Under the pieces are notes generated by a model, which was not told the origin of the DNA, made no database searches, and saw nothing but the letters and a program-made list of their open reading frames with translations. Below, piece after piece: positions 22,041 through 64,000 of a stretch of DNA of 64,000 bases. This DNA is from Aurelia coerulea (Eukaryota; Cnidaria; Scyphozoa; Semaeostomeae; Ulmaridae). The first letter of the stretch is position 1; each line of letters begins with the position of its first letter. A program made the position numbers and the translations under genes. The stretch is taken from NCBI GenBank assembly GCA_039566865.1, contig CM076954.1, forward strand, positions 17,136,001-17,200,000. Direction: 5' to 3'.

Positions 22041-22310
22041 ATATGCTGATACTGACGAGGAGCCTCAAAGAGCGCACTGTGATTGGTAGAATTTAACTGA
22101 TCACATGCAAACTTAAATTAAAATTACTAAATGAGGCTGCCTGCTGTGGTTCAGCTGTGGAAGTGCAACCGCAAGTAAGTCATCAGTCTGCTTAGATAAG
22201 ACCTGGCTATTTGATGAAATCATTTGCCAAAGTGATCAAATAAAATCAGCATGCTAATAACAGAAGATTTGTGTCTAAAAAACACGAAATATCATATAAT
22301 AAATATCAAC

Positions 22311-22704: not shown

Positions 22705-22740
22705 CCTTATGGTCCTAGGTCCTCGTTTTCCGGTATGCCC

Positions 22741-29533: not shown

Positions 29534-29637
29534 GACAACTTCATGCAACAAAATCTGGAAATGATTTTATAACGGCAGCCGTTGGTCGAGATTGTGTATT
29601 GCAGAAAATACATTTGGTCTTCTTACATTTATTGCAG

Positions 29638-32219: not shown

Positions 32220-32852
32220 ACAGACAAAAGTTTTGCAGACTGTCTACTATTCCCTCTATACTGGGGCATTGTATTTCCGCCTTTAAGCGCCCAGTGCACT
32301 CCATGATAACTGATTTATTTATGTTTAAGGAGGGGGGGGGAGCTTTTTTGCGAGTATTTAACGTGGAAAATGCTATTGATATTCCTGGTAATCGATAATC
32401 TACAGTACAGTTTTTTCGTAAGTTAACACAATTTTTATTCGACGGACGATTTTGCCGCCTGAATCCGCAGATGAGTTCAAACAGATTCGTAGAAAGAAAG
32501 CGTCGGAATTCGTAAGAGCACAGGTTGAGTCAAGTGAAGCTTTCTTGAAACATCCAGTTGAAACAGACTATACCCAAAGAAAATGTATAGCCTGCGCTGC
32601 GTCACGCCGCTCACTTTTGAGTAGTACGTGCTTCAGCATAACAAAGAAAACTTATTGTCTTATTGTTGTAAAAGTCAATAACATCGCTTTCCTGCGAAAC
32701 GAGGAAGCAATCAGATTTGAGAACGACTATCATGTGATTAAATCCCATGTTTCGCGTTGTTCTCTGAGCAAACTTAATTCAGCAATCTGCTCAGCAACTA
32801 AGCATTGAACTAAGAGTGCTACTGAACATCTTTGAAGCTGGCCTACTTCAGT

Positions 32853-32952
32853 AGTTTTGGTCGGCGACCTACGTGCTTGCCTGGTGCGCATGCTCTCTAG
32901 CAATAGAGCATGCGCACTGAAAGAGCTTGTTGGTCGCCGACCGAAACAACTG
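32853..32952. repeat. Small hairpin MITE, TTTTGGTCGGCGACC ends
   Basis: AGTTTTGGTCGGCGACC is inverted as GGTCGCCGACCGAAACAACT. An internal GCGCATGCTCT/AGAGCATGCGC pair continues the stem. Confidence 0.7.
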
Positions 32953-32973
32953 GAACTGGAAGACTGCCTTTAA

Positions 32974-34338
32974 CCCTATCCAGACTAGGGGGGGGGGGGC
33001 ACACAGTAAACTTTAGTAAACTTTTCCACACAGCTCGTCTAGTATCTATAGAATAGTCTAGCTTTTTTGTGACTTTTAGTTTCTATCTATGAGACATTTT
33101 TTCATGTTAATTTCAAAAATTTTGACACTGACTCCGGGGGTCAACACATGACTTTAAAGAGTTTGTGCAAGGTTAAAAGCCTGCATTTGCACAAGCAAAA
33201 AAATCTAAAAATAGATCAAGCGAATCATTCAATGGCAGCATAGTATTCAGGTCACGAGAAACTTTGCATGTGATCAGTTCGAGGAAAGGAAGAAACGAGT
33301 ATGGCGGACAATGAGAATCTCACGCGAACGATTTTGAAATGTGCCAAGAGACCTGGGATTATAAAAGGATTATATAAGCCCCACCCAGAGAATTAATTTG
33401 TTTGAAATCAAAGTTCTTACATTTCTATTGTAATTTGAGGCAGAGTGTGTCCCCAGCCATGGAGACTACTATTAAAGCTGCAGACTTTCACATATAGTAT
33501 TGTGAAAATTCAATGAGAAGCAATGCAACTTTATTTTCACGGCCATGACAAATGATAAAGATCTCCATGCTTTACTTCTGCACAAGGAATCATTTGCTAT
33601 TTCTATCCAATAATTGAGGGGACAGAAATAGAGCGCTCGGCAAGAGTGCTCGGCAAAATAGTGCTCGGCAAAATTAATACCTTTTAAGCCATAGCTTTGG
33701 AACCACTGGCTCTATGACAATGAGACAAACATCGCTGAACTCGTCTTGAGACAAGCTTTCATTTGATATATAGTTTATTGATTTTTGATGACGTCATCAA
33801 CAATTGGTTAATGCGCATGCGTACTGACGAAAAACCATGTTATGCCTCATGTTTTGAAAAATGAGTGACATTATATGATGCAGCAGGTCTTTTTATGTAT
33901 ATCTAACATTTTTTGTTATTTTTAAAAGTAATTTATAATCAATTTTAGACAAAAATCGCTTTTTTTCGTACAAAATAAATAAATGCTGATATCAGCAAAA
34001 GTATTAGTATTAAGAATAAAAAATTTCAAAATAAGAATTACAAGGATATAATCCTTCTATTTTTCAAATATCACATCGATATGATTTATGAATATGGAGA
34101 TACAACGCGACAAAGTACATATGGTTTTACACCCAAATTAGCAACATTTGCTGACGTCAGCACTTAATCACGTGACATAAACAGAAACAAATCACACCAT
34201 CTTGTTTGCCTTATCATGTTTGTTACTTGTGCCAAGTTTCAAGTCTCTAGCACTTATGATTCTGTGAAAAACCAGGGGGGGGCACTTTGTGCCCCCCCTA
34301 GTCTCCCCAGAGTTTCAAAAAGCCTAGTCTGGACAGGG
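32974..34338. mobile_element. TIR element with CCCTATCCAGACTAGG ends and G-runs
   Basis: CCCTATCCAGACTAGGGGGGG (first 16 bases 32974-32989) is inverted as CCTAGTCTGGACAGGG (ending 34338), with a C-run/G-run pair just inside each end. It is preceded by TTAA but not followed by it. The ends resemble the TTAA-flanked element at 24630 (CCCTATTCTACATGGGG), suggesting the same superfamily. The interior has no coding exon that I recognise. Confidence 0.6.
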
Positions 34339-34720
34339 TGCAAACGGCTGACAATAAATAGACTAGGGAGGGAGAAAGGGCCATTCAAACTGCTTTAGAA
34401 ATAAATGCTGAAGCATACAATATATGATTGAGCGGCTTTGCGCAGACGATACCTTTTCCTTAGGTATTGTCTGCACGCAGGCTAGATTTAGCGTAAAAGT
34501 GTATCAGTATGTAACTGAACGGCTTGGCTTTTTTTGCAAAGTGACTAGAAATATTGTGATTCCGTCATTTCTCGGACTTTACCTTTTTTTCTAGTCCATG
34601 TTATTGGAAGATGTGAGTAGAGCCGAACTCCAAATCTGTATGGGAGCACGAAATTTGAATAAGGAACAAAGGTTACATTACAATCCATCTCTAGCCTCAC
34701 TCCATAAGGACCCTACAGTT

Positions 34721-34772
34721 TAGCCTGATAACCAGACCCGATTTAAAAAAATTGGGTCTGGTTACCAGGCTA
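34721..34772. repeat. Perfect TAGCCTG...CAGGCTA hairpin
   Basis: TAGCCTG.TAACCAGACCC is inverted as GGGTCTGGTTACCAGGCTA around an AT-rich loop of about 14 bases; the stem is almost perfect. A weaker relative lies at about 34432-34485 (GCGCAGACGATACC / GGTATTGTCTGCACGCAGGCTA). Confidence 0.75.
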
Positions 34773-35139
34773 CCTACAGTTACGTTCATCTCGTTGAGTT
34801 GAATTGTTATTGTTGTTGTCGCTCCGTTGAGGGCCTTGTTTCCCTAGAGATGTAAAACAGCAGCTTGATGAGAAATCTTAGGGCGAGTACGACGACAAAA
34901 AACATCATGTTCATTGACTCATATTTCATAATCAATAAGTTAGAAAATTGACAAGTCCATGTTATAATTAGAGTGACATAAATCAGGTGACATAAATCAA
35001 GTGGCTAAGCCATATCAAATTAGAACCGGACAAAAATACCAATCTGCGACAAGTTTGAATTGTACTTTGGCCAATTTGGCCAAAGAGGATCACTGGATGA
35101 TCAATTTCAGTTCTCTTCCTTGAGAATATTAATTCAACA

Positions 35140-35984
35140 CAGTGGCGTGGTGGCCGAGGGGGGGCCGGGGGGCATGTGCCCACCCAGCCGCCTGAGAATG
35201 CAGGGGTGCTGAAGGCGCCAAACGTTTGGGGGGCGCCAAATGCATGAAAGCTTGCTCCACACTAAATCGAGTTAGAATGTATAAGATGCGACAGAAAAGT
35301 GTTAGCGATATTTTTGCCTCAATTTTTTATTTTATAGGCACCTTTGAAGATGTTTAGATGGAATCAGAAATTTGTTTTTTCGATGTGGAATCGATAACTC
35401 TCTACGCACGCGAACATAAAGTGTCTAGAGATCGTGCTATCCCTATTCCAAGGCGTTTTTACTCGAGCGGGACCCAATCCTATCTAGAAAAAGTCAGTGG
35501 TATGGCTACGGGGGAGTATAGGGGGCAATTGCTTCACTTTTGTCGAAAGATGGTCCTCTAGCTGGGTATAGGTTGGGTAAGGATTTTCTGAGAAATGTCA
35601 AATCTTCCATTTTAGCACTGGCAAATATGAAATCAAGAGATGCATTTTAAGCCAAATTAAAGGATGCTTCCTCAAAAAATTTCCTCCCGCAAGGAGCATT
35701 TCCCAACGATAAGAAGGGCATGATCTCAAAAATTTTTGCTCGCTCCGCTCGCACAGAGATTTGGTACTATTACTAAACATCGGTGTACGTTTTTTTCCGA
35801 GGTTCCGACAGGAGTGCAGAAGAATCATCATCCTTTATTTTCAAAGCATTTCTAAAGGAGGAACCGGTCTTAAAAGCCTTGGCGCGTTGTGTAAGAGATA
35901 ACAGATAACAGTCACAATAATTTTCTAGGGGGCGCCAAAACAGGTTGTGCCCCCCCCAGCCAATTTGGAGCCACCACGCCACTG
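35140..35984. mobile_element. hAT-like non-autonomous element (8-bp TSD)
   Basis: The 15-bp inverted repeats CAGTGGCGTGGTGGC and GCCACCACGCCACTG are flanked by the perfect 8-bp duplication ATTCAACA (35132-35139 and 35985-35992). CAGTGGCG ends with 8-bp duplications are the signature of hAT elements. The subterminal GGGGGGGCC and GGGGGCGCCAAA words are repeated inside both ends. No transposase frame remains. Confidence 0.85.
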
Positions 35985-36156
35985 ATTCAACAGCTTGTTT
36001 TTGTGCATCAGGATTGAATGACATTCTCCAATTTTTAGCCCACTGTTAATAATCAGTCAAGTTAAATGTTTGGCTCATGCCAGTGTGACATGGGGCTAAG
36101 GTTACATACGGCCCCCATTGAGGCTAATAAAAGGCCCTGATTTTTGTAAGCAGTGT

Positions 36157-36600
36157 AAATGCTGAGTGCCCCCTCCTGGGGACCAACCGCTCAACATTTA
36201 CTTCTGTGCAAGCTTCCAGAAAGGTCCCATCATTGCAGTTTCTTGAAGGCATATCATGGCACATACGGCGAGGTAAGTCCGATATTTTTGGGTCATAATA
36301 CTGCCAAAAGTCATATTTTTGGGTCTAAATTAACTGACATTATGCACATGATATTTTTGGGCATCAAATATAGTCAAAATGATATTTCAAGGGTTCGTTC
36401 GAGGCAATCCTGGCCCCAATTTGCATTGTTTCAGGATCTTTTATGTGCGTTTACGAAGGTCATGGAAAAAATGAGATGATATTTTGGGGTTGCAATGATG
36501 TGAATGAAACAAAACTGATATTTCTGGGTTTCGTGAAAATTTCTCGGACTGACCCCCTCGTATGCATATATGCTGAGTGCCCCCTGGGGGTTGGACTCGC
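36157..36600 (+). repeat. Dispersed repeat with TGCTGAGTGCCCCCT ends
   Basis: ATGCTGAGTGCCCCCT occurs at both 36158 and 36569. The internal part (CATACGG.GAGGTAAGT, ATTTTTGGGTCA, CTGGCCC.AATTTGCA, GATATTT..GGGTTTC.TGAAAATT) is found inverted at about 49460-49800. A dispersed element; no coding support. Confidence 0.55.
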
Positions 36601-37221
36601 GTTGATAAATTGGTCTAGGCAAAACAAGAGCGCTCTGAATATTAATATGGAAACCCCCTTTATAAGACCGTTTCGACAAAATTTAAAGGAGGCCATTTGA
36701 AACAAACCGATACAATTACATTCAAGCAATTCTTCTTCTCCCTTGCAAGTCCTCACGCTCCTTCGCAGCGACTTTGTGACATTCGTTTTTTTTTGCGCAT
36801 GCGTCAGATTTCGCAAAGTTGCTACGTATAGAAACTACTATAAAATCAATTGTGAAAACAAGCGTTTAAGGACAGACAAAGTCAAATTATTAGGACACTG
36901 CGGAGGAGTGTGTGCAAGTCCTTGTATGCAAATATCCTATGCTGTCTGTCATTCTTAGTAGTGCAACCTGATTGGTTGAGCACATGTGATGAGAAGACGT
37001 ATCTAGCAAGACATGAAATGCAAGCAAGACGTGCCATGTTACATACGACTACTTACGTCGACAATGCTTCGGTTTATTTGTTTATTATGAAACAATGGGG
37101 GATTTTTGTTTAACCCTAAACTTAGAATAATAGGACAATAGTACAAGAATACTTCCTGCTAGTGCTCTTCAGTAGTGCTCTTCCTTGGCATGTTAAAGAT
37201 CACGTCCTCTATCCGTATGAC

Positions 37222-37402
37222 TGATTACCCAAGATTCACTGCTTCGTTAGAGCTTCCGCGTTCCTTGAGCTTGCATAAAACTTCTGCCTTCGCATCACGG
37301 TCCATAACTGCCTGTCGGGTGCAGAACTTCGGTGTTTTCGAACGCTACAAAGTTGCTACCAAACCAAAGCATCATGCCTTCCATTCCATAGGCAAGAATT
37401 AT
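37222..37402 (+). repeat. Dispersed repeat upstream of the FReD gene
   Basis: Same family as 16573-16870. It ends about 175 bp before the TATA-like box of the fibrinogen-domain gene and could contribute regulatory sequence or be old UTR-derived repeat. The 89-codon frame here is not supported as a gene. Confidence 0.55.
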
Positions 37403-37577
37403 GATTTGATCCGGGACGCGATCTCACATGAAGAAATGTCATGATCAATTATATAATCAAACTTTGATGATTACCAGTTTACAAAGTTAGATCAATACAA
37501 CGTGATTGGACTGCTTTTGAAAATACATCAACCAATCAGAATACAGAGATTAGCATATCTGTGAATCATTCTTGATC

Positions 37578-37584
37578 TATAAAT
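37578..37584 (+). promoter_or_regulatory. Candidate TATA box for the FReD-FN3 gene
   Basis: TATAAAT lies 105 bp upstream of the proposed start codon at 37689. Transcription would begin near 37608-37614, leaving a short leader. A 16-codon upstream ORF begins at ATG 37613 and ends at TAG before the main start; whether it is transcribed depends on the exact start site. Confidence 0.4.
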
Positions 37585-37688
37585 TGCTCATACATTACAA
37601 GATTTTCAACTCATGAAACTAGCAGCTTCTTTTCCCAGAGCTTGTGAAAGTGAAAGAAAATAGAACGATTGAAGGTAAATATCGCACG

Positions 37689-37753
37689 ATGGTTTCTTTG
37701 GCTATTCTTGAGACATTGGTTTTGGTGCATGCTCTCATTTCACTGCTTGCTAC
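37689..37753 (+). CDS. Exon 1, 5' part: signal peptide of FReD-FN3 gene, broken by gypsy insertion
   Basis: ATG at 37689 (context CACGATGG) opens a frame with a hydrophobic leader: MVSLAILETLVLV, then HALISLLAT. This looks like a signal peptide. After 65 bases the frame runs into the LTR of a Ty3/gypsy element at 37754. The frame resumes after the element at 43446 (the intervening CTAC is the target duplication) and ends at a consensus donor. There is no earlier in-frame ATG; an in-frame TAG lies at 37620-37622. The reading frame, the leader chemistry and the matching phase of the next exon together support a real first exon. On this haplotype the exon is interrupted, so normal protein is not expected. 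Confidence 0.65.
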
Positions 37754-38230
37754 TGTGATGGCAGAGATTTCGAGCGGTAAAGAAACGACAACTTGTATAT
37801 TTTCCAAGTTATAATGAATCCAACAAACATAAACTCCCGAAAGAGAATATGGAACTACTCTAGCTGATCGCATAGAAGTGAATTAAAGATAGCTACAATT
37901 CTACAGTTTAAATAAGAAGTTACGCGGAACCATTTGGGAAAATTAACCAATAAGAAATAAGAAAAACAGGAAAGTGACTAACGTGAGAATAGCATAGGCG
38001 TATGCAGAAAATGTAGAAAAACAACTAGTCAGTTACCAAAAGTAAATACCGAAAAGGAGTAAGAGTCAGGGAAAGACGTACGTAATACTGAAACGATGCA
38101 GTAAAAGTTAGTCATAAGCTGAGACGGAAAAGCGGCATAAAAATCAAAGTAGTAAAATATGTAAATGACGAATGAGTAAACCAAGGAGAAGAAAGTAAGA
38201 AATGAATGAGCAAAAAGGGGTATCGTGACA
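37754..38230 (-). repeat. 3' LTR of gypsy element
   Basis: 477 bp, nearly identical to 42965-43441. It differs at GACGTACGTAA (here) against GACGTAAGTAA and at GATGCAGTAAA against GATGCAATAAA. Confidence 0.95.
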
Positions 38231-38232
38231 TA

Positions 38233-38241
38233 CCCTCCCCC
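38233..38241 (-). other. Polypurine tract
   Basis: The minus strand reads ATAGGGGGAGGGTA immediately before the 3' LTR, the expected place of the plus-strand DNA primer. Confidence 0.8.
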
Positions 38242-38306
38242 TATGTTGAAACGTCCCTTGTTTCACGAAAATGAAAGTTACAACTAAATCACGATACAAT
38301 TTCAAA

Positions 38307-41300
38307 TTAATCAGAAACATCACTACTTTCTACTTCCTGGGTAATAGTGTCCATAACAGTGTCCATTTTATCCATTGGTCTAGGTTGACGGTCTTTAAAC
38401 AACTTACACCGATTTACATGTACGATGGTTTTTCTACGAGGTCCTTCTTCTAGTTCTATGTTTACATCTGATAGTTTTCTAATTATTCGATAGGGTCCGT
38501 TCCAGAGATGCGATAATTTGCTCGTTAAACCTTTCTTTACTTGAGGTGTATACAGCCAAACTCTATCTCCTACTTTAAAGTTTACATCTTTCGCATTCTT
38601 ACTTGCATCATAATTAGCTGCTTGGTTAAACTGAGCTCGTTCGATACTTTGTTGTGCTACATATCGAGCTTCTTGCGTGCGTCTAATTACTTCTTGTTTG
38701 TAATCATCTACAGATACATACTTACTGATAGGAGCAGAAAGAACTACATCTAATGGTAAACATGGATCTCGACCATAGATAAGGTAGAAGGGCGTTTCCT
38801 TCGTAGACTCCTGCGTGGCGGTACGGTAAGCAAATAACGCAAAGGGAATAAAGCGGTCCCAGTCCCTTTGATGCTTGGAAACGTACATAGAAAGCATACT
38901 ACAGAGCGTGTGATTAAAACGTTCTGTGAGACCATCGGTTTGCGGATGATAAGCGGTGGTGTTGACCTTTTTCACGGTGAAAAGATCACAAATCTCCTGA
39001 ACGAGCTTCGACAAGAAATTCTTGCCACGATCGGACAACAGTGTGCGAGGAGCTCCGTGTCGGCTAACTAACTCCTCGACAAAAAGTTGTGCAATAACAT
39101 CGGCACCTGCGGACTTAATAGCAAATGCTTCCGGCCATTTTGTGAGACTGTCCGTGAATACTACAACATAGCGGTTACCATTGTCTGAGGTGGGTAAAGG
39201 TCCTAAAACATCGACACAGACACGATCGAAAGGTCCTTCGACGGGAATACTTTGCATAGGTGCGGTTGCGTTGCGCTTAGGCGATTTCTTAGACGCGCAG
39301 TCTTTGCAAGTTTCTATCCAATGGGTTATATCCTTATACATACCTTCCCAAAAATAGCGCTGTCTTATCTTATCGTACGTTTTCGCAATTCCTAAGTGAC
39401 CTGCAGATACGTCGTCGTGCATACTAGCGAGAACTTCGTCTATCAAATTTCGCGGAATTACAAGCTGGCACCGCGTTTCCTGCCTACGATAGGGCGTTGT
39501 AGGGCTGTACAAATGGTACAAAATGCCATCTTGCAAAACATACTGATCTGCCTTAGACGCAATTTTTCGATCGTCAGAAGAGCTGCCTGGTAATTCGCCT
39601 GTTTGCAAATACTTGACTAGCTGCGCTAAAGCTTGTTCCTTGCTTTGTAATTCTGCCATGTTAGCGAGCTCGAATTTTGGCGGTGAAATCGCGCTGATTA
39701 TAGGCATACGTGACAATGCGTCTGCGTTAGCGTTGCACTTACCTGGTCTATATTCTACCTTAAAATCATACGCTTTTAGGGTCTCTGTCCAGCGTGCTAA
39801 TCTACCTTCGGGGCATTTTAGCGTAAAAAGCCACTTAAGCGGGTTGTGGTCTGTGTAGATGGTAAAAGATCGACCATACAGATAATGCCTGAAGTACTTT
39901 ACAGACCAGACTATCGCAAACGCTTCCTTCTCTATGGTGGACCAATTAACCTGTGAAGAACCAATCGCTTTGCTAGCATACGCAACTACAACTTCGGAAC
40001 CGTTACGCATCTGTCCTAAAATTGCGCCAAATCCTTTGTCGCTGGCGTCAGACTGGATGTAAAAGGGCAAACTAAAGTCCGGAAATTGCAGCACTGGGGA
40101 AGAAGTAAGCGCTTTCTTCATGTAAGAAAATGCCTGCTCCTGCTCAATTCCCCATACATATGGCACGTTCTTCTTGCTTAGACGATATAACGGCTCAGCA
40201 TGCGTGGAAAAGTCCTGAATGAATCTCCTATAATAGCCTATAAGTCCTAGGAAAGACCTAAGCTGCGTGAGATCTTGTGGGACCGGAAAATTTTGCACGG
40301 CGCTAACTTTGCTTTCGTCCGGGCGCAGACCATCCTTGGACACTACATGTCCTAAGTACTTGACTTGGGGTGCGCAAAAAGTGCATTTCTTAACCTTGAG
40401 TTTCAAGCCACCTGTGCGCAAACGAGATAGGACTGATTCAAGTCTACCTAAGTGCTCTTCAAAAGTGCGCGAAAAAATGATAATGTCATCCAAATAGACG
40501 AGGCATGATTCCCAATTTAGACCTGCAAGCAAAATCTCCATTAAACGCTGAAACGAGGCTGGTGCTCCGCAGAGGCCAAAAGGCATGACAGTAAATTCCC
40601 AAAGCGAATTCGCAGTTCCTGGTGTGGTAAAGGCAGTTTTGGGCATGTCCTCCTCCTTAAGGGGTACTTGCCAATAACCAGATGCTAAATCTAGGGTGGT
40701 AAAATATTGTGCGCCACCTAAAGTATCTAGGGTCTCATCTATGCGCGGTAGAGGGTAAACATCCTTGCGCGTGATCGAATTTAGCTTGCGAAAATCTACG
40801 CAAAACCTTGTACTTCCATCCTTCTTGCCTACTAAAACTATGGGGCTTGACCAGGGACTCTTGGACGGCCTAATTACTCCCCTGTTCGCCATGTCTGTTA
40901 CATGCGCATCTACGACCTTACGCTGTGCCTCCGGAATACGATATGGCCTTTGGTAAATAGGGGGGTTACCTTGTGTGTCTATGGCATGCTCAATAATATC
41001 TGTGCGCCCTAAATCAGAGTCAGATTTCGCAAAAACATCAGAGTACTTATTCAAAACATCACTAAGTCTAACCTGTTGCTCTGATGACAAATTAGCTGAT
41101 GATAAATCTAAGCTATCAACAATAGACTTCTTGCAATTGTGGTCTAATTGCATCGTGGCAATATCCGTGACTGACGTCACTGTACCAATATTCACATTGG
41201 GCTCTATGGTCACGGTGTCGTAACCGGGATTTACCAACCTTACTGGGATTTCCCCTTGCTCTGGCCTAACGATAGACCGAGCAGCATAAACATGTGAAGA

Positions 41301-41975
41301 TTGGCATAGCGACTCATTCACTTCAAACAAACCAGTAGAGCATCCTGGGCCTATAGGCAACATGGCAAACATTTCAGATCTGGGGGGAATCTCTATCTTT
41401 TCCACTGATGAGATTTCCCAAGTGGGTTCTGGCCCATCAATGCCCATTGAAGTTGTTTCCGAATTCCATTTCAACGTACGAGCGGACATATCAAGGGTTA
41501 GGCCCTCCCTGGTTAGAAAATCTGTCCCAAGCACACAGTCGTGCTGAAAACCTGACGCGACGTAAAAATCTTGGAATGCTACATTGCTTCCTATCCTAAG
41601 GGACGCCGAAAAGATACCCTTAAAATTTACAGGTTCTCCCGTTACCGATGTAGCATTCATATTCCCAGGACGTAAAGGGACATGAGGCATGTGCTTACGT
41701 TGAAATGATTCATTTACAATGGTCATTGACGCACCAGTATCCATCAACAACTTGGCAGGGTGCTCATTGATGAAACCTTGAACTAAACTAGCGGGACCAC
41801 AAAGCAATACTTCTTGAGAATACGATACTTTGTTACTCAACGGAGGATTGACGTCATTATTACTCAAAGGCTGCTCCTCCGTATTCTCAACTACGTTAAC
41901 AACCGGTAGAGGATTTAAAATTTCTTCTGCTAACTGACCTCTACGAACAGTAGCAGATTCTAGTTTCCCTGATTC
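38307..41975 (-). CDS. pol: gypsy Pol: protease, reverse transcriptase, RNase H, integrase
   Basis: The frame is open from just after a stop at 41976-41978 to 38307. The first apparent start near 41867 is a TTG codon, so Pol is probably made only as a Gag-Pol fusion by -1 frameshifting. Counting residues from 41867: retropepsin (LLMDTGASMTIV, about 40-51); reverse transcriptase with FTTLDLASGYWQVPL, MPFGLCGAPASFQ and the YLDD box (about 455-458); RNase H (SDASDKGFGAILGQ, then YTDHNPLKWL); integrase with an HHCC zinc finger (GHLGIAKTYDKIRQRYFW ... CKDC) and the D,D-35-E core (VDVLGPLP, LLSDRGKNF, GLTERFNHTL). The C-terminus carries a GPY/F-type module (LWNGPYRII), as in Ty3-clade elements. All catalytic residues that I can check are present and there is no internal stop. 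It copies the element and integrates it. Confidence 0.95.
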   Translation of the reverse strand, partial: ESGKLESATVRRGQLAEEILNPLPVVNVVENTEEQPLSNNDVNPPLSNKVSYSQEVLLCGPASLVQGFINEHPAKLLMDTGASMTIVNESFQRKHMPHVPLRPGNMNATSVTGEPVNFKGIFSASLRIGSNVAFQDFYVASGFQHDCVLGTDFLTREGLTLDMSARTLKWNSETTSMGIDGPEPTWEISSVEKIEIPPRSEMFAMLPIGPGCSTGLFEVNESLCQSSHVYAARSIVRPEQGEIPVRLVNPGYDTVTIEPNVNIGTVTSVTDIATMQLDHNCKKSIVDSLDLSSANLSSEQQVRLSDVLNKYSDVFAKSDSDLGRTDIIEHAIDTQGNPPIYQRPYRIPEAQRKVVDAHVTDMANRGVIRPSKSPWSSPIVLVGKKDGSTRFCVDFRKLNSITRKDVYPLPRIDETLDTLGGAQYFTTLDLASGYWQVPLKEEDMPKTAFTTPGTANSLWEFTVMPFGLCGAPASFQRLMEILLAGLNWESCLVYLDDIIIFSRTFEEHLGRLESVLSRLRTGGLKLKVKKCTFCAPQVKYLGHVVSKDGLRPDESKVSAVQNFPVPQDLTQLRSFLGLIGYYRRFIQDFSTHAEPLYRLSKKNVPYVWGIEQEQAFSYMKKALTSSPVLQFPDFSLPFYIQSDASDKGFGAILGQMRNGSEVVVAYASKAIGSSQVNWSTIEKEAFAIVWSVKYFRHYLYGRSFTIYTDHNPLKWLFTLKCPEGRLARWTETLKAYDFKVEYRPGKCNANADALSRMPIISAISPPKFELANMAELQSKEQALAQLVKYLQTGELPGSSSDDRKIASKADQYVLQDGILYHLYSPTTPYRRQETRCQLVIPRNLIDEVLASMHDDVSAGHLGIAKTYDKIRQRYFWEGMYKDITHWIETCKDCASKKSPKRNATAPMQSIPVEGPFDRVCVDVLGPLPTSDNGNRYVVVFTDSLTKWPEAFAIKSAGADVIAQLFVEELVSRHGAPRTLLSDRGKNFLSKLVQEICDLFTVKKVNTTAYHPQTDGLTERFNHTLCSMLSMYVSKHQRDWDRFIPFALFAYRTATQESTKETPFYLIYGRDPCLPLDVVLSAPISKYVSVDDYKQEVIRRTQEARYVAQQSIERAQFNQAANYDASKNAKDVNFKVGDRVWLYTPQVKKGLTSKLSHLWNGPYRIIRKLSDVNIELEEGPRRKTIVHVNRCKLFKDRQPRPMDKMDTVMDTITQEVESSDVSD

Positions 41976-42889
41976 TTATTTTCTGAGCTAGAGGCACCAT
42001 TTCTAAGATTAGGATACTTTTTCCAACAATTCCTCTCTAAATGACCTGGTCTACTACAGAAATTGCATACGGGGCGCCCATCCCGGGTAAACTTATTTCT
42101 GGTGCCTGAATTTCTAGGGTTCCCCTTACGATAATTGAAATTTCTCTCACTTACGTCTTCGTTTTTCATCAACAACTTGCCCAAAAGTCCAATGACTTCG
42201 GTCATCTGATCATTTTTCTGCGGTTCGACGGCATTTACTCGTTCTGGGGCATAATTTGCTTCCAATGACTCTTCTCTCAAAGCAATACGGATGGCGTCCG
42301 AAAAAGTTTTTGGGTCAGCCATTGTAACTCTCCGCATCAAATCATGACGCAAACCAAGGATGAAATGTTCACGGGCTGTCATCTCTATAATTTCATTATC
42401 CACTCCGCTTGGAAACGATCTGAACACGAGGCGTTGTATCGCTGACGCAAACTCATTCACTGATTCCATTTTCCCCTGTTTTCGTCCAGCAAGGTTACTG
42501 TAAGCGGATCTTCTCATATCGGCAGGGCTGAAACGTTCAATCAACGAATTCTTGATTGCTTCATAATTCGATTTATTTCTCGTGTCCAGTTTCTCAAAAT
42601 GATCGGCAGCAGGCCCTCTCAAATATGCCGAAATCATACGTCCTTGTTTCGTCACGTTCCATTCATTCGCTCTAGCAATTCTTTCAAAAGATGAAAACCA
42701 ATCTATGACATCATCGTTCGGGTAGCCATAAAACTTGTCAGGATGCACCGCAATAGACTTGCTCACGAACACATTTGTTCTACCAGGGCTTCCTCCAGTT
42801 GCACCACCAGTACTCTCAGCTGCTTCGGTATCAGACATTCTTGAAAATCGAAGACTTAACGGGCGAATTTGTTCTGATCTCCAACTCAT
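41960..42889 (-). CDS. gag: gypsy Gag polyprotein
   Basis: A 309-residue frame from ATG at 42889; a second ATG (MSDTEAAES) at about 42838 is an alternative start. Residues about 55-200 match the Ty3-type capsid region (FYGYPNDDVIDWFSSFERIA ... MISAYLRGPAADHF ... FASAIQRLV). Near residue 272 there is a CCHC zinc knuckle (CNFCSRPGHLERNC, spacing C-2-C-4-H-4-C) that binds RNA. It forms the particle in which reverse transcription occurs. It ends at TAG (41960-41962), immediately after a slippery heptamer, and overlaps the pol frame by 16 bases. Confidence 0.9.
   Translation of the reverse strand: MSWRSEQIRPLSLRFSRMSDTEAAESTGGATGGSPGRTNVFVSKSIAVHPDKFYGYPNDDVIDWFSSFERIARANEWNVTKQGRMISAYLRGPAADHFEKLDTRNKSNYEAIKNSLIERFSPADMRRSAYSNLAGRKQGKMESVNEFASAIQRLVFRSFPSGVDNEIIEMTAREHFILGLRHDLMRRVTMADPKTFSDAIRIALREESLEANYAPERVNAVEPQKNDQMTEVIGLLGKLLMKNEDVSERNFNYRKGNPRNSGTRNKFTRDGRPVCNFCSRPGHLERNCWKKYPNLRNGASSSENKNQGN
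41963..41969 (-). promoter_or_regulatory. -1 ribosomal frameshift heptamer GGGAAAC
   Basis: In the gag frame the codons are CAG GGA AAC TAG, so the heptamer G GGA AAC fits the X XXY YYZ rule and the stop codon follows directly. Pol lies in the -1 frame and is open across this point (from 41975). I did not model a downstream pseudoknot. Confidence 0.75.
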
Positions 42890-42944
42890 GCGCGTTGGCT
42901 AGGAACCATAGATTTCAATTCATCTAGGCCCTATTTAATCGAAT

Positions 42945-42962
42945 CCCAGCTCCTTGTCACCA
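42945..42962 (-). other. Primer-binding site
   Basis: The minus strand reads TGGTGACAAGGAGCTGGG starting two bases after the 5' LTR; TGG complements the CCA end of a tRNA. The sequence continues ATTCG, consistent with a T-loop complement, but I cannot name the tRNA; the spacing is two bases longer than a standard acceptor. Confidence 0.65.
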
Positions 42963-42964
42963 AT

Positions 42965-43441
42965 TGTGATGGCAGAGATTTCGAGCGGTAAAGAAACGAC
43001 AACTTGTATATTTTCCAAGTTATAATGAATCCAACAAACATAAACTCCCGAAAGAGAATATGGAACTACTCTAGCTGATCGCATAGAAGTGAATTAAAGA
43101 TAGCTACAATTCTACAGTTTAAATAAGAAGTTACGCGGAACCATTTGGGAAAATTAACCAATAAGAAATAAGAAAAACAGGAAAGTGACTAACGTGAGAA
43201 TAGCATAGGCGTATGCAGAAAATGTAGAAAAACAACTAGTCAGTTACCAAAAGTAAATACCGAAAAGGAGTAAGAGTCAGGGAAAGACGTAAGTAATACT
43301 GAAACGATGCAATAAAAGTTAGTCATAAGCTGAGACGGAAAAGCGGCATAAAAATCAAAGTAGTAAAATATGTAAATGACGAATGAGTAAACCAAGGAGA
43401 AGAAAGTAAGAAATGAATGAGCAAAAAGGGGTATCGTGACA
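42965..43441 (-). repeat. 5' LTR of gypsy element
   Basis: 477 bp, the upstream LTR of the minus-strand element, containing its promoter. Two differences from the partner at 37754-38230. Confidence 0.95.
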
Positions 43442-43445
43442 CTAC

Positions 43446-43474
43446 ACCTGATAAAAGATTTGGTGCATTTGCAG
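43446..43474 (+). CDS. Exon 1, 3' part: resumes after the gypsy insertion
   Basis: After the second CTAC copy, 29 bases continue the signal-peptide frame (...TPDKRFGAFA) and end in GCAG|GTAAGAATAG, a strong splice donor at 43475. The restored exon is 94 coding bases and ends in phase 1. The next exon found (48282) begins with the two bases TT that complete such a codon. Additional exons between 43475 and 48282 are possible, but I saw none. Confidence 0.6.
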
Positions 43475-44079
43475 GTAAGAATAGCAACAATCGCGTTTAT
43501 AAATCAGCATCTGTGGGAAACTTTTAGATCAAAGATCATTTTCTTTGGCTTAGAATGCCTGTCTTCATCCCATTTTCACCAATGCAAATTGGACATTTTC
43601 ATGATTTTGTCCAGGGACGACCACCTTCAGAATATTTCTGCGCAACCACATTTACTTTTGTCTTAGAACCTGTCTTTTAATCCAGTTTGCCTGGTTCCAA
43701 AATGGAAGCCTCTACAATATTCGGATGATTTGTCTAGGAAAGTGTTTGAAAACGCTAACCTTCACTTTGGCCTAGAATGACGTCCCTAGTGACTTTGCAG
43801 CATTTCTCAGAAAGCTGTTGCCTTACCCATACTTTTCACAACTAACTCTCTCCTCGTTTCTTAAAAAGTTTGACAGAAGGGAGGGTAAATGTTTCCCCAA
43901 CCCCCACGCCACTACTTTTTCAAGGATAAATCTCGACGAAAAATGCTCAAATCATTGGAAATGCTTCACTTATCAAAATTTTACCTCTTTGCAGAAGGTG
44001 CTGTTGACAAAACGCTTTCATGGGAGAAGTTCTTGCAAGCAGAGCTTGAAAATCGCCTGAAAACAACACGAGGGGGGGG

Positions 44080-44600
44080 GGGGGGTTCTTCCATAGTAAA
44101 GGTACCTGGGGATGTGCCGCGAGCAAAGGCATGCTTTTTCGGACTTCTAGTCTATCTAAGGGAACACCTTTTTGAAATTTTGGCCTTGCAACGGTCTAGC
44201 CAAGGGTATCATTTTTGGCAATATTGGTCTAGCAAACGGTCATAATATCATATTTGGTAGAAATTTGACAATATTGGTCTAGGAAATGGTCAAAATTGGT
44301 CGTGCCAAGAAAAATTGGTCCAGAGAATGGTCAAATTGGTCTAGCCAAGGGCAGGTGTGCAGAGTATGGCACTTGCACACCGGAGATTTTCAATAGCCTA
44401 TTCAAATTAGACAATAGAGAGCAAAAGAAATTTCTCGTTGCACACCGGAGATCTCGTCGAAACGTGCCATACTCTGCAGACTGGGCCAAGGGTACCATTT
44501 TCATAAAATTTAGTCTAGCCAACGGTACCATTTTGAATATGCTCGCGGCAGACCCCTACCCAAAATTTGGCCAAGAACCCCCTCCCCCTTCGTGGAAAAC
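44080..44600 (+). repeat. Dispersed repeat with degenerate ATTGGTCTAG units
   Basis: It begins at a G-run and contains tandem ATTGGTCTAGCAAACGGTCA-like units (44180-44345) and the inverted pair GCAGAGTATGGCAC / GTGCCATACTCTGC. GGGGATGTGCCGCG.GCAAAGG is shared with 59335-59710 (GGGGACGTGCCGCGGAACAGG). Repetitive; coding not supported. Confidence 0.5.
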
Positions 44601-45224
44601 AACTTGTTTGTCAATTCATCTACTATAAATGTTCTTTGTATCATTTTCTTCATTCATCTTTGCTCTAGAGTGGCAATTTTTGTTCCATATCTGAAAATTA
44701 TCATTGCAAATAATAGGACCTTTTAAATTGCTGTATGTCGCGTGTAAATTCAAGGCAAAAAAAATTGAAAAAGGAAAGGCCACGATACCAGCGTCGATTG
44801 TCGGATCCGAAGATGCTTGCGGTGACGAATGAATGAATGAGTTTTAAAGGCAGAAATACCGCAATGCAACAAAAAACAACAGCAAATATGATTGAATTTA
44901 TTTCATGCCATTAGGGTTAGGGTTCATTGCAAAGGCCCCCGGCGAGGTCAGAAAAGTGGGGAGGGGGGGGGGCAAACTTTATATAAAAAAATTACCACAA
45001 CAATGCCAGATCACCAAAAATTCACTGTTAAAAGAATTATTACAGGACCCTCATAAAGACTTTCGTTGCTTTCATTTGGTTGCTTAAGCCATTAAACAGC
45101 CCTCTGAAAGTATCGTTTTGGAGTATAGAATGGTCCCAAAAGGGCCCTTGCTGATGGGGGCACTTCGGGCCCCAGCCCTGTAGCCCGACTGGTCAGTGTA
45201 TACCCCTGACTCAAAGGGCATGAG

Positions 45225-46490
45225 ACAACGCTGGCGTCAAAGTGTGACTCTTTTCAACCTTTACATAAATGACCTCATCAACGAAGTCGAGGCAATCAAC
45301 CCTTCCCCCTACACCTACATCAGGAGACTAACGTAAGCTGTCTTCTCTACATGCTGATGATCTTATTTTGTTGTTTCGGTGAAGACGAAGAAAACCAAAT
45401 GCACCAATGACCTTTCAGAAAAAGTGTAGGCTAAACAGAAAGGATTCTTTTTATGTGAACAAAAATAAGATAGAAAACGTCACACTCGATACAGTTATTT
45501 AGAAATGGCCATAAACGCTGTGGGTTCGTTCCACATTGCTATCAAAACACTTGGCCGAAGGATGCCTTAAACGGCAGGTACCAAATAAAACGTTAAATTG
45601 TTTGACTCTGTGATGTCAACTATCCTCCTTTATTGCGGTGAGGTTTGGGGAGCATTTCATTACACAGACTACGACATGTGGGGCAGCAATATCATAGAAA
45701 AATACACCATCATTCTGCAAATATTTACTTGGGGTAAACAGGTCAACTGCAAATATTCTGGTTCGTAGTGAATTAGGCCGCTTCCCTTAAAAAAACACGA
45801 TAGACAGCAGATGTATCTCCTTTCTGGCTACGACACAAAGAACGATCTCCACAAAATAGTCTGGTGCATCTTTCCTTACTTGCAAAACAACATATTCTCA
45901 TTTCTCAACTTTAAAGCTCATATTGATAACATAAAAAATTTCACCAATATAGTAGGATGTAGATGTAACATGTATTGTATCATTCATTTTAAATGAATAT
46001 ATATAAAAATTATAATCATCTAATAGGAGATCTGTTTCACATTTAAATTCCATGGAAGTCATAGTTCAGTACTCCAAAAAGAGGAAATTCCTACGTGATA
46101 TGGACAAAGAATTTTTAAATGTGAAACAGATCTCTTATTAGATGATTATGATTTTTTTGTATATATATTCATTTAAAATGATACAATACATGTTACATCT
46201 ACATCCCATCTAATTACTTTACAAACTATACAACACTACAGGGATTATAATTTCAGGCATAACAACAGCAAAATTACGCACAAAGTGACCACATTCGGGC
46301 AGTCGAATCCGGTAGACGAACTACACCAACAATTACATTTGAAGATAGATTGTGTAAACTTTGCAGTGCAGAAGTTGTTGCAGATGAAATGCACTTTATC
46401 TCAGAATGCCCCCTTTACAACCATATTAGAAGAGATTTCTTAGAAAGGTGTTCAATTTGTTCTCAAATGTCAGACTTCTGAACGTTAAAT
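45225..46490 (+). pseudogene. Decayed LINE reverse transcriptase, interrupted by a foldback
   Basis: Plus-strand fragments in changing frames read, in order: TLFNLYINDLINEVEAIN (RT region), LSSLHADDLILLF (the YADD box, with His for Tyr), KLFDSVMSTILLYCGEVWGAF, and after a foldback insertion RLCKLCSAEVVADEMHFISECPLYNHIRR (zinc-finger-like LINE tail). Several stops and frameshifts separate them. Identified by pattern; clade not assigned. Confidence 0.7.
45955..46206. repeat. Foldback hairpin, about 96-bp arms, inside the LINE
   Basis: GGATGTAGATGTAACATGTA...GATCTGTTTCACATTTA is inverted almost exactly, with a loop of about 60 bp. It splits the decayed LINE. Confidence 0.8.
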
Positions 46491-46579
46491 TTTGTTAGTA
46501 CGTTTGTACCTAGTATGTTTGGAAGATTAAAAAATAACTGGGCTTTCGATAGCAATGCTAGCGCATGTGCATAGCAGAA

Positions 46580-46916
46580 CATTAACCTGGGTTCAACCAA
46601 TGTTTGCGTTTACACTACATATTGTAAATCCTAACCTGGGTTCAACTCAGGTTCAACCCACCTCCAGAGAAGGGTTGGCTTAACCTGGGTTAGCTAAACC
46701 TGGCTTAGCTGCGTTTACATTATGAAATTTCTAACCCAGGTTCAACCCACCTCCAGAGAGTCGAGGGGTCGGCTTTACCTGGTTGAACCCAGGTTTTCAG
46801 GCCAGCTGCATTTACAAGGGTTGGCTTAACTTGGGTTGAACCCAGGTTAGCTGCGTTTATAGTTAACGTTAACCCAGGCTCAACCCAGGTTGAAAGTTGT
46901 AGTGTAAACAGGGCTA
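46580..46916. mobile_element. MITE made of AACCTGGGTT/AACCCAGGTT words
   Basis: About ten copies of AACCTGGGTTCAACC or its complement, interspersed with GCGTTTACA and GTGTAAAC, fill this segment, so either strand can fold in many ways. In style it belongs with the elements at 4591 and 17023. Confidence 0.6.
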
Positions 46917-47117
46917 AAATCTCAATCACGAACTATTTTGGAGGTTTTTCAAGGATATCCTTAAGATATTGTAGCTGAGGGCAAACTTTTTAACGTTGTC
47001 TTGACATTATGTCTTTGGGTCAGTTTATCCAACAAAAATATTTTTCAAATCTTTTTCTATTGTCTCGCTAAAGAGCTTTCTTTGGCGACCGCTCTGCCTA
47101 GTTCACTTTACCACAGG

Positions 47118-47843
47118 CCGGGGTAAAGTGAACTACTTAGCAATTGTTCGATAAAACCAAAATAATGCTAGTAATACCCGAAGACATGATTTATTGTGCA
47201 ACTCTAAGGAGTTCTTCGCATGCCAAAACGAAACAAACCCAAAAATTTTACAAGGGTGATATTTAAAAAATCAAATGGCGACCGATGTTGAGAATGATCT
47301 TTGCAGATCAAATATAAACCAAAAACTATTGTGAAAGTCACAAATTCAAGTCAGATTGCGATACCTGAATACAATTCTATGAACAATAATAAGAATATAC
47401 TTGGAAAATACTATATTGCATATAAATACCAAATCACTACAAAGAGAAATACTATTTTCAAAGTAGTTCACTTTGCCCTGAAACCTCCGCCTAGAAATAA
47501 AACCAAAAATAGTTATAAATCCATAACAATGATCAATATTCTAATTTCACAGTGATGGCCATTTATCCTTTCCATACTTGCTTCATCAAATCCCAATGAA
47601 ATTCTTGGATCAGTTACCGCATTTTTGAATGAAGGTCAAACTTAGGCTGTCAAATTTTTGGAGGTTTCTCAGGGAGCTGGTATCAAAATATGTTTCTGTG
47701 TCATCAGAGCGAAAAATTATCCTGCAAGTTATGATTTTCTGAAGGCAGAATTATGAAGCAAATGAGATTAAAAAGGTCTTCTTCATCTGACTTCGTGTTC
47801 ACATGAGAAAATCAAAAATCGTGGGTAGTTCACTTTACCCCGG
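47118..47843. mobile_element. TIR element, perfect 19-bp CCGGGGTAAAGTGAACTAC ends
   Basis: CCGGGGTAAAGTGAACTAC (47118-47136) is exactly inverted at 47825-47843. Further copies of GTAGTTCACTTTACCCCG occur just outside: 47099, about 47463 (TTGCCC variant), 48226 and 48245. The last copies end about 25 bp before the FReD exon's acceptor. The interior is AT-rich with no gene. Confidence 0.65.
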
Positions 47844-48281
47844 TCGAAGCAAAATATCGTCTGAGCGGTAGATCTTTTAAAATATTATGTTAGCTGACAA
47901 AAACGTCTTTCTTGGCCCTTTCCTTTTGGAAAGAGTAAAGACATGGTATGTGCTTCAAATCGATCAAAACAATCATAGAAATGAATTTCGTCTTTGGGTC
48001 AAAACTTAAAACCAAAGATAGGAGCCCAAACCTAACAACCATAATTTCCCAAGGTTGTTTTTACTGCCTCGGGTAATGGGATTTTTTGCAACAACAGGAA
48101 GGAATATTTTGCAAAAATGTTTTCATTTTATGTGAACACATGTAGGCACATGTAACAAAGCATTGGACATAAATCATGTTTTATCATTGCTTGTTTACTT
48201 TTGGAGAGAATCGCGAATGTTCTGAGTAGTTCACTTTACCCCGTAGTTCACTTTAAATTTTGATCATCTTTTCATTAGCAG

Positions 48282-48914
48282 TTTCAAACCCAAAAAGTTG
48301 TGAAGAAGTGTTGTTAAACGGGAAGCGACTCAGTGGCGAATACACAATTTGGATTGACGGTGTTACACCAACCAATGTATCTTGCAATATGGATATAGAT
48401 GGTGGAGGTTGGACTGTTATTCAAAGAAGGGTTGATGCAAGTACTGACTTCTACAGAAAGTGGACTGAATACAAACAAGGCTTTGGCAACTTGAGCAAAA
48501 ATGTTTGGTTAGGGTTGGATAATATTCACAAGCTAACAGAAAGAGGAGCTGTACTTAGAATTGACATGACTGAGATTGGTGGAAAGAAAATATTCGCAAA
48601 GTATAGCAGATGCAAGATTGGTAGTGAATCTACTAATTACAAGCTAGAGGTTTCAGGTTATGCTGGGAATGCAAATGACAGCTTAGATTATCACAATGGA
48701 ATGGGTTTCTCTACGTATGATAGGGATAGTGATCCCTTTAGCGGTGGTAACTGTGCCGTATACTGTCATGGAGCTTGGTGGTATAGAGTGTGTCAATGGT
48801 CAAATCTAAATGGAGCATACCCCCTCGATGGAAGGGATGCTCCATATATGATGACATGGTGGTTTCTCAGAAGTCGATACGGTTCTATCATTTACTCAGA
48901 AATGAAAGTTCGTG
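48282..48914 (+). CDS. Fibrinogen-related domain (FReD) exon
   Basis: The exon is bounded by acceptor TTCATTAGCAG (48281) and donor GTAGGT (48915), both in phase 1, and codes for 211 residues. It begins SNPKSCEEVLLNGK and holds a complete fibrinogen C-terminal domain: DGGGWTVIQRRVDAS, FYRKWTEYKQGFGN, WLGLDNIHKLT, the calcium-site region DRDSD, the CHGAWWYRVCQWSNLNGAY core, and a terminal SEMKVR. Such domains bind sugars or acetylated groups in ficolins and tachylectins and occur in many invertebrate recognition proteins. An upstream signal-peptide exon and downstream FN3 exons in compatible phase make it one module of a larger secreted or cell-surface protein. The frame past 48914 (ending 48991) is intron read-through. 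Ligand unknown. Confidence 0.85.
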
Positions 48915-55473: not shown

Positions 55474-55544
55474 AGATGTATTGTTCCAAAACAAAGTCAC
55501 AACTTTAACTATCATTATGTGCTCGAACCCTTATTATGTCGACA

Positions 55545-55765
55545 TAAACTAGGATTATGTACATAAACCTATATTATGTGCACATAAACTAGGATTATGT
55601 ACATAAACCTATATTATGTGCACATAATGTAGGTTATCACTACATAATATAGGTTTATGTCCCGATAACCCATATTATGTGCACATAAATTAGGATTATG
55701 TTACATAAACCTATATTATGTCGACATAATCATAGTTTATGTAACATAATCCTATATTATGTCAT
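55545..55765 (+). repeat. Tandem palindromic TATATTATGTGCACATAA repeats
   Basis: Two nearly exact 40-bp units (ATAAACTAGGATTATGTACA + TAAACCTATATTATGTGCAC) are followed by rearranged inverted versions. Confidence 0.8.
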
Positions 55766-56832: not shown

Positions 56833-57153
56833 TTTTTCCACAAATACCGACGAATGTGGCTACAACTGACTTGACAAACACATCTGTTAGAATAAGTTGG
56901 CAATCAAGCGATTCAAATTTAACTGTATGGTACACTATTGAATGTAGCACTGCTGAAAATGGTTCAGCAGCATGCAAAGATATCCTGTACTCACCAGAAG
57001 CTAAAAACATTACTTCAAGAAAAGCTGATCTCAGAAAACTTCACCCATATACCAATTACAAATTTACAATCTATGCCAAAAATGCTGCTTCAAGGAACCT
57101 TTCGAAGAAGTATTGGCCAAATGAAACAATTGCTTTTATGACGCGTCCTGGAC
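56833..57153 (+). CDS. FN3 domain 1 exon of the FReD-FN3 gene
   Basis: The exon runs from acceptor TATCCTTCAAAG (56832) to donor GTAAGT (57154), 321 bases, phase 1 at both ends. It codes a full fibronectin type III domain: PTNVATTDLTNTSVRISW (B-strand Trp), VWYTIEC, ADLRKLHPYTNYKFTIYAKN (the L-x-Y-x-Y-x-F tyrosine corner), ending FMTRPG. Several N-glycosylation sequons (NTS, NLT, NGS, NIT, NLS, NET) suggest an extracellular location. FReD's terminal G plus TT gives Val at the join. FN3 domains serve as spacers or adhesion modules. Confidence 0.75.
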
Positions 57154-59059: not shown

Positions 59060-59250
59060 TTCCATCTGAAGTTGGCAGTTTTCTGTACAAGGTGGAAAAA
59101 AAAACGCTGACCCTTGGCTGGCAGCCACCTCCTTTCAAACGGGATGCTGTTGTCTACTATGAAACAAAGTGTGATGGAATGAAAATTAAAAGCACATTTT
59201 ATCCATATTTAACGATATCAATGGGAGAACATACTGCCATTACATGTCAA
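59060..59250 (+). CDS. FN3 domain 2, first half exon
   Basis: Acceptor CACTCATATAG (59059) to donor GTAAGT (59251); it starts in phase 1 and ends in phase 0. It codes PSEVGSFLYKVEKKTLTLGW, then QPPPFKRDAVVYYETKCDG and ISMGEHTAITCQ, the A-to-E strands of an FN3 domain with the conserved Trp. The second half lies in the exon at 60635. The single base C left by the preceding exon plus TT gives Leu at the join. Confidence 0.65.
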
Positions 59251-60634: not shown

Positions 60635-60695
60635 GTACGATCAATAAATTCAGCTGGGAAAGGGCCGTGGAGGACGAAAACTATCATCTTGTCAG
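60635..60695 (+). CDS. FN3 domain 2, second half exon
   Basis: Acceptor CTAATTCCACAG (60634) to donor GTAAAT (60696), 61 bases from phase 0 to phase 1. It codes VRSINSAGKGPWRTKTIILS, the F-G strands of an FN3 domain. Joined to 59060-59250 it gives one domain of about 84 residues with the F-strand RSINSAGKGPW. The two halves together restore a symmetrical phase-1 module. Confidence 0.65.
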
Positions 60696-61839: not shown

Positions 61840-61943
61840 GACCCAAACAGAACAAGATTATCCTTTACCAATCAAGCCCAACCTTGAAGCAGCATTTGAC
61901 AAAAAACACAAAAGACTGCAATTCTTGCTTTTTCAATGCCTGA
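61840..61943 (+). CDS. Possible terminal exon of the FReD-FN3 gene
   Basis: A good acceptor (TTCTGTTTTATTTTAG, 61839) is followed in the required phase by about 34 codons (GPKQNKIILYQSS, then CNSCFF near the end) to TGA at 61941. AATAAA occurs downstream near 62090. There is no domain and no transmembrane segment. The gene may instead splice onward to an exon beyond the window, since the last bases of the window look like an acceptor. Confidence 0.25.
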
Positions 61944-63990: not shown

Positions 63991-64000
63991 CTTGTTTCAG
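63991..64000 (+). other. Possible splice acceptor at window end
   Basis: The window ends in ATTTCTTGTTTCAG, a good acceptor sequence. An exon could begin at the next base; whether it belongs to the FReD-FN3 gene cannot be judged here. Confidence 0.25.

Follow-up and report, generated by a model that had tools for sequence, protein, structure and literature searches.

A recent Ty3/gypsy insertion in the probable signal-peptide exon of a FReD-FN3 gene of Aurelia coerulea

In a 64,000-base stretch of Aurelia coerulea contig CM076954.1 (hereafter, the window), an ATG followed by a hydrophobic leader runs into the long terminal repeat (LTR) of a retrotransposon, and exons encoding FReD and FN3 domains lie downstream on the same strand. 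The locus raises three questions: whether the interrupted leader is the first exon of the FReD-FN3 gene, whether the interruption is recent enough to be absent from other haplotypes, and what the occupied allele could still produce.

The leader exon and its surroundings comprise the following features.

37532..37536, + strand: CCAAT, possible promoter element by consensus match alone, 157 bases before the ATG
37578..37585, + strand: TATAAATT, possible TATA box by consensus match alone, 111 bases before the ATG
37689..37753, + strand: 5' part of the probable first coding exon, with the ATG and the hydrophobic leader, ending in the target-site copy CTAC
43442..43474, + strand: second CTAC (43442-43445) and the 29-base 3' part of the exon (43446-43474), then the donor CAG/GTAAGA

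The 5' part extends for 65 bases from the ATG at 37689 up to the LTR at 37754, and the 29 bases past the second CTAC keep the frame of the ATG up to GTAAGA at 43475. The restored, empty-site exon of 94 nt is open and ends in phase 1, its translation being MVSLAILETLVLVHALISLLATPDKRFGAFA plus one base. The leader, the duplicated CTAC, the in-frame remainder and the donor had all been given in a preliminary description, which proved exact to the base. The hydrophobic stretch includes a glutamate and a histidine, and the start of the leader has no basic residue. With 38 occurrences of TATAAA on the + strand of the window, the TATA and CCAAT matches lend the leader exon mild support only.

The interrupting element is a complete Ty3/gypsy LTR retrotransposon on the minus strand (37754-43441, 5688 bases).

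37754..38230, - strand: left LTR, the 3' LTR of the element
38231..38242, - strand: polypurine-tract-like AGGGGGAGGGTA before the 3' LTR, read by eye
38307..41975, - strand: pol ORF, open as it stands
41960..42898, - strand: gag ORF with one zinc knuckle
42945..42962, - strand: TGGTGACAAGGAGCTGGG, resembling a primer-binding site by eye and separated by two bases from the 5' LTR
42965..43441, - strand: right LTR, the 5' LTR of the element

The LTRs are 477 bp each, with TG...CA ends and two mismatches (LTR positions 328 and 348), and the 4-bp target-site duplication, CTAC, is found at 37750-37753 and 43442-43445. The 1222-residue pol frame, which is -1 relative to gag, encodes in this order the protease (residues 65-156), reverse transcriptase (383-544), RNase H (608-736) and integrase (840-1191), as delimited by Pfam; gag matches Retrotrans_gag (Pfam, E 9.6e-06), and its nucleocapsid knuckle is CNFCSRPGHLERNC. 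There is no env between pol and the 3' LTR, the pol stop being 76 bases from the LTR, and the element is not an env-bearing endogenous retrovirus or errantivirus. ARAGORN found no tRNA genes in the window. In one scan of viral contigs with the RT-RNase H piece of the element, one stretch fit a pattern and no relative was confirmed.

The gene model downstream of the element consists of five exons.

48282..48914, + strand: FReD exon, phase 1 in and out, from Pfam Fibrinogen_C and an alignment with ficolin-2
56833..57153, + strand: FN3 domain 1 exon, phase 1 in and out
59060..59250, + strand: FN3 domain 2, first part, phase 1 in and 0 out, without a Pfam match of its own and assigned via alignment with P0001, a receptor tyrosine kinase model
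60635..60695, + strand: FN3 domain 2, second part, phase 0 in and 1 out
61840..61943, + strand: possible last exon with a stop and a 34-residue tail, supported by no relative and perhaps spurious if the gene runs past the window

The sequence before the FReD exon (...CATTAGCAG) ends at 48281, and the exon opens in phase 1; the phase-1 end of the leader exon matches this start at 48282, as the preliminary description had noted. Junction phases through the downstream exons are 1-1-1-0-1 with no stop before that of the tail, and donor scores in the gene model (five donors) range from 3.01 to 7.25 bits. The FReD exon is separated from the FN3 exons by 7.9 kb, and the window ends 2 kb past the last exon of the model. 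Fibrinogen_C covers residues 3-210 of the FReD exon (Pfam, E 3.6e-60), cysteines C6, C34, C157 and C170 are invariant in five aligned sequences, and the four cysteines and three calcium-loop aspartates are common to this FReD and ficolin-2, which ranks first among 68 PDB matches (E 4.5e-54). The FReD deviates from four relatives at two columns in which all four agree, F74 (V here) and N149 (S here), the latter within the calcium loop. Judged by its residues, it reads as a sound domain.

For comparison with chance, we scanned for exons of 52-220 nt that run from an ATG to a GT in phase 1, and graded each on the strength of its donor and the hydropathy of its leader. At loose thresholds (donor at least 4 bits, hydropathy at least 2.0), the leader exon was the sole candidate on the + strand of the empty-site interval 32220-48281 (10,370 bases); of 200 dinucleotide shuffles of this interval, 5.5% contained at least one candidate. 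Across the entire empty-site window (58,308 bases, both strands) there were three candidates including the leader, the mean in whole-window shuffles (n = 100) being 0.49. At strict thresholds (at least 7.2 and at least 2.6, respectively), chosen after the values of the leader itself were known, no candidate beside the leader exon remained on either strand of the empty-site window, and none arose when the 10,370-base stretch was shuffled 200 times (+ strand) or the whole window 100 times (both strands). The leader exon stands above the chance level. On the + strand of the occupied interval 32220-48281, no other leader exon reached a donor of 4 bits and a hydropathy of 2. In the FReD-to-FN3 interval, one weak candidate for a separate leader of the FN3 part, at 53107 (donor 4.4, hydropathy 2.12), did not match the P0001 leader at E ≤ 1 and was rejected.

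Going by its frame, phase and donor, the 94-nt exon is probably the first coding exon of the FReD-FN3 gene and would carry its signal peptide. Alternatively, the leader exon could be unused, the element being intronic or upstream of the gene, the FReD being spliced from another first exon (perhaps weaker, non-coding or outside the scanned stretches) and the insertion being near neutral. We regard this as possible, though doubtful. Alternative first exons are common in animal genes; moreover, the search with residues 1-44 of the gene model produced 18 candidates but no relative at E ≤ 10, and P0001, the closest FN3 relative, has a different leader. On the other hand, the exon is the sole loose-threshold candidate in 32220-48281 and the sole strict one in the window, and the arrangement of frame, phase, donor and TATA/CCAAT agrees with its use. 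The proposed junction of leader and FReD agrees in frame and phase, and the leader is a candidate signal peptide.

The divergence of the LTRs is 0.42% (2/477; 95% interval 0.05-1.5%), about a fifth of the 2.08% heterozygosity published for A. coerulea. As the LTRs differ less than this published value, the insertion is probably recent and segregating, with the empty exon probably present on other haplotypes; a simple neutral model allows a probability of no more than 18% (2-52%) that the insertion is also present on the other haplotype. The heterozygosity used in this dating is a borrowed value, and two LTR differences are a small count. The earlier suggestions of a recent gypsy insertion in a probable signal-peptide exon and of a possible polymorphism both find support, the element being young enough to segregate, and the youth of the insertion relative to heterozygosity makes its presence or absence among individuals directly testable. 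LTR elements constitute 39.82% (text) or 29.05% (table) of a published moon-jellyfish genome, so one of them in a gene is unsurprising. As a mutation, a retrotransposon within an exon is nothing out of the ordinary; the more unusual part is the gene that was hit, which would couple a fibrinogen-type recognition domain with FN3 domains of the receptor-tyrosine-kinase kind.

The explanation to which we incline, with moderate confidence, is that a complete Ty3/gypsy element recently integrated antisense into the first coding exon of a gene whose product would be signal peptide-FReD-FN3-FN3, perhaps continuing to a membrane-spanning kinase beyond the window. On this view the gene would truly start at the 94-nt exon, with FReD and FN3 exons belonging to one transcript. 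Counted against it are the leader without a found relative, with its glutamate and histidine and no basic residue at the start; the 7.9-kb gap between FReD and FN3; the other leader and missing FReD of P0001; the F74 and N149 departures; the borrowed heterozygosity; and the small count of two LTR differences.

From the ATG, the occupied allele would be read for 41 codons, about 20 of them inside the LTR, to a stop codon beginning at 37812. Since the true donor is displaced by 5.7 kb, most transcripts would be expected to yield no secreted or membrane protein, and the allele is likely a strong loss-of-function; this genome copy may have lost the protein while other copies retain it. The null status, asserted in the preliminary description, is likely but not secure, because the LTR holds a weak donor that makes another outcome conceivable.

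37777..37782, + strand: LTR-borne splice donor, GTAAAG preceded by GCG, phase 1 and in the frame of the ATG, 1.66 bits; possible rescue donor

If this donor were used, an exon of 88 bases ending in phase 1 would be spliced to 48282, and the allele would still work, its product being MVSLAILETLVLVHALISLLATVMAEISS joined to the FReD domain, that is, a signal peptide with an LTR-encoded cleavage region. Such a rescue is unlikely. The hydrophobic stretch does sit upstream of the insertion, and no other leader exon in the occupied interval 37601-48281 (+ strand) has both a donor of at least 1.5 bits and a hydropathy of at least 2; however, each of the five donors in the gene model outscores the LTR donor, roughly one right-phase GT is expected by chance before the LTR stop, and transcripts could be terminated prematurely at the AATAAA (two) and ATTAAA (four) motifs on the element's + strand. 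Very improbable is a third outcome, in which the right-hand LTR serves as a host-strand promoter and an ATG at 43417, in frame with the exon remnant and its donor, gives a leaderless intracellular FReD. The frame is open from 43417 through 43473 with one ATG, but promoter activity on the host strand is putative, and a disulphide-bonded FReD lacking a leader would hardly be expected to fold in the cytosol.

The FN3-FN3 pair is 88% identical over 192 residues to P0001 (EukProt Seg6654.1, labelled 'Tyrosine kinase receptor Cad96...', which we take to derive from the Aurelia genome of Gold et al. 2019), and both end at the same exon edge, TIILSG. Because of this match, the gene may be a receptor, with its ectodomain in the window, and the name of recognition-type gene calls for broadening. 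P0001 differs in lacking a FReD and in having a leader of its own immediately ahead of FN3. Compared with the window at E ≤ 1, its membrane stretch had no match, its kinase had one 20-residue match (9996-10055, E 0.011), and its leader had one chance-level match (0.18) on the other strand. None of ten hydrophobic phase-1 frames following AGs in 60700-64000 was recognised as its membrane segment, and P0001 residues 1-280 had P0001 itself as the only relative at E ≤ 0.001 (2279 candidates). A wider hypothesis, which we consider speculative and rather unlikely, is a jellyfish FReD-FN3-FN3-membrane-kinase receptor that gained its FReD by phase-1 exon shuffling and whose leader is silenced or re-ended by a segregating gypsy split. 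If so, individuals would differ in the display of this receptor, and a ligand-type recognition domain would have been joined to an FN3 kinase receptor that elsewhere lacks one. The listings from searches for FReD joined to receptor-tyrosine-kinase-type FN3 named no such architecture.

Compared with known systems, the element resembles Ty3/gypsy (Metaviridae) in the PR-RT-RNase H-integrase order, the gag zinc knuckle, the TG..CA LTRs, the PBS-like and PPT-like sites, the 4-bp target duplication and the -1 frame of pol; it is without env and is placed at the Ty3/gypsy level, above clade. With the ficolin, FREP and tenascin-type lectins the gene shares the four-cysteine FReD with the D-x-D-x-D loop, which in alignment is 49% identical to that of a ficolin-2. 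It differs from them in the order of its parts, an N-terminal FReD followed by FN3 with no collagen region, whereas in tenascins FN3 precedes FReD.

The insertion lies where the preliminary description had placed it, and that observation stood as a whole, while the interpretation built on it is partly supported. Two LTRs of 477 bp (37754-38230 and 42965-43441), differing by two mismatches and flanked by a CTAC target duplication (37750-37753 and 43442-43445), split the candidate first coding exon (the leader exon) of the FReD-FN3 gene into 65 coding bases on the 5' side and 29 on the 3' side, the latter followed by the donor GTAAGA at 43475. A BLAST search of the window with the LTR as query yielded these two copies only. 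The element is on the minus strand, and its internal part contains two open frames:

42898-41960, minus strand, gag frame, open
41975-38307, minus strand, pol frame, open, in the -1 frame relative to gag

Pfam gave the Ty3/gypsy domain order (protease, reverse transcriptase, RNase H, integrase); the motifs DTGA and YLDD, a zinc knuckle, a polypurine tract and a PBS-like site starting with TGG are also present. The gap between pol and the LTR measures 76 bases, too few for env; hence the element is an LTR retrotransposon and not an env-bearing retrovirus.

Other repeats were seen elsewhere in the window. Near-identical inverted repeats (19085-19541 and 22046-22740), about 2.5 kb apart, contain heptamer arrays (CAGGACC, 22 copies; CTGGGTC, 56 copies), and the arms 14362-15056 and 15358-16051, 97-98% complementary, are perhaps a foldback element.

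We looked for exons of 52-220 nt that run from an ATG to a donor in phase 1, scored by a donor weight table and by the Kyte-Doolittle hydropathy of the leader. With loose thresholds (donor at least 4 bits, hydropathy at least 2.0), the leader exon was the sole candidate on the plus strand of 32220-48281 with the empty site joined, while 5.5% of 200 shuffles of this stretch had at least one. On both strands of the whole 58,308-base empty-site window there were three candidates including the leader exon, the shuffles averaging 0.49 (n = 100) and reaching three in 1/100. With strict thresholds (at least 7.2 and 2.6), chosen after the leader exon's own values, it was the sole candidate, and none of the 200 local or 100 whole-window shuffles had any. 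TATAAA, found 38 times on this strand of the window, and CCAAT lie upstream at promoter-like distances. Two results count against the exon: the hydrophobic stretch is interrupted by one glutamate and one histidine, and none of the 18 candidates in a database search for leader relatives reached E <= 10. Judged from sequence, the leader exon is probably real. The gene's upstream neighbour (29565-32219, plus strand) consists of one uninterrupted frame, 884 codons long, that encodes VIT and VWA domains.

Exons of the FReD-FN3 gene downstream of the leader
48282-48914, FReD exon
56833-57153, first FN3 exon
59060-59250 and 60635-60695, exons of the second FN3
ending at 61943, possible tail exon

Leader included, the junction phases are 1, 1, 1, 0, 1, and the exons join without a stop. 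Pfam gave no match of its own for the second FN3, which was assigned by alignment to P0001, a receptor tyrosine kinase model. The FReD-to-FN3 intron contains AT-rich tandem repeats (55532-55764; units of 20-61 bases). At the window's end (63985-64000), TTTCTTGTTTCAG resembles an acceptor, and a next exon, perhaps a membrane segment, could start at 64001.

In the occupied allele, the frame from the ATG runs for 41 codons, about 20 of them within the LTR, to a stop codon beginning at 37812; the normal donor is displaced by 5.7 kb, and AATAAA occurs twice and ATTAAA four times on the plus strand of the element. Most probably the secreted or membrane protein is lost, although an in-frame phase-1 donor in the LTR leaves another outcome. 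Splicing at 37777 (GCG|GTAAAG) would end the exon in phase 1 and retain the whole hydrophobic stretch with LTR-encoded residues; however, this donor reaches 1.66 bits, whereas the gene model's five donors range from 3.01 to 7.25, hence it is unlikely to keep the allele working. Translation could also begin at an ATG at 43417 within the right-hand LTR and give a leaderless product, which is less likely.

The two mismatches in 477 positions amount to an LTR divergence of 0.42% (95% Poisson interval 0.05-1.5%). PMC13243523 gives a heterozygosity of 2.08% and a GC content of 37.37% for A. coerulea; GC per 4-kb bin of the window is 0.355-0.447, which, taken with the label of the protein relative P0001, makes a scyphozoan host probable. 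Heterozygosity, like the divergence between LTRs, accumulates at twice the mutation rate, so that the rate drops out when the two are compared. With the published heterozygosity borrowed for this host and LTR gene conversion ignored, the insertion has about one fifth of the mean age of the divergence between two haplotypes. A simple neutral model puts the probability that the other haplotype carries it at no more than 18% (interval 2-52%). Thus, on the borrowed heterozygosity and with the same disregard of gene conversion, the suggestion of a possibly polymorphic insertion is supported.

The event is of a normal kind in a new case; what makes it interesting is that its segregation can be tested, and also the architecture of the gene that was struck. 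The open-licence literature searched yielded no report of a cryptic donor brought by an LTR insertion or of such an insertion in a signal-peptide exon. A survey of cnidarian receptors including Aurelia takes the fibrinogen domain as a mark of extracellular location (PMC8260672), and the sea anemone FREP family is described as vastly expanded and tied to innate immunity, possibly venom (PMC12549020). The accessible text of the open-licence literature searched names no fibrinogen-FN3 receptor kinase.

Among 68 PDB matches of the FReD the top one was ficolin-2, which has four cysteines and three loop aspartates in common with it. The window FReD departs from a residue shared by four relatives at two positions (74, V for F; 149, S for N, in the calcium loop), so that the domain seems intact overall, though with some change. 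P0002, a relative with 75% identity over the FReD, has a frame open upstream of the FReD start across a few similar residues, which suggests the same acceptor.

P0001 (615 residues), presumably from the moon jellyfish Aurelia by its label, was the top match among the matches listed (best 120 of 730 proteins). The FN3 pairs are 88% identical over 192 residues and the match is confined to them, P0001 having a different leader and no FReD. Its leader and membrane stretch had no meaningful-score match in the window, and its kinase matched only 20 residues (NLGPPLVEVFSVGDQPYPAF; 9996-10055, plus strand; E 0.011), possibly a decayed kinase fragment. Thus, the window gene would be a FReD-bearing sister of P0001, with the kinase beyond 64000, or else encode a secreted protein whose end is at 61943; that the FReD exon and the FN3 exons come from separate genes is less likely.
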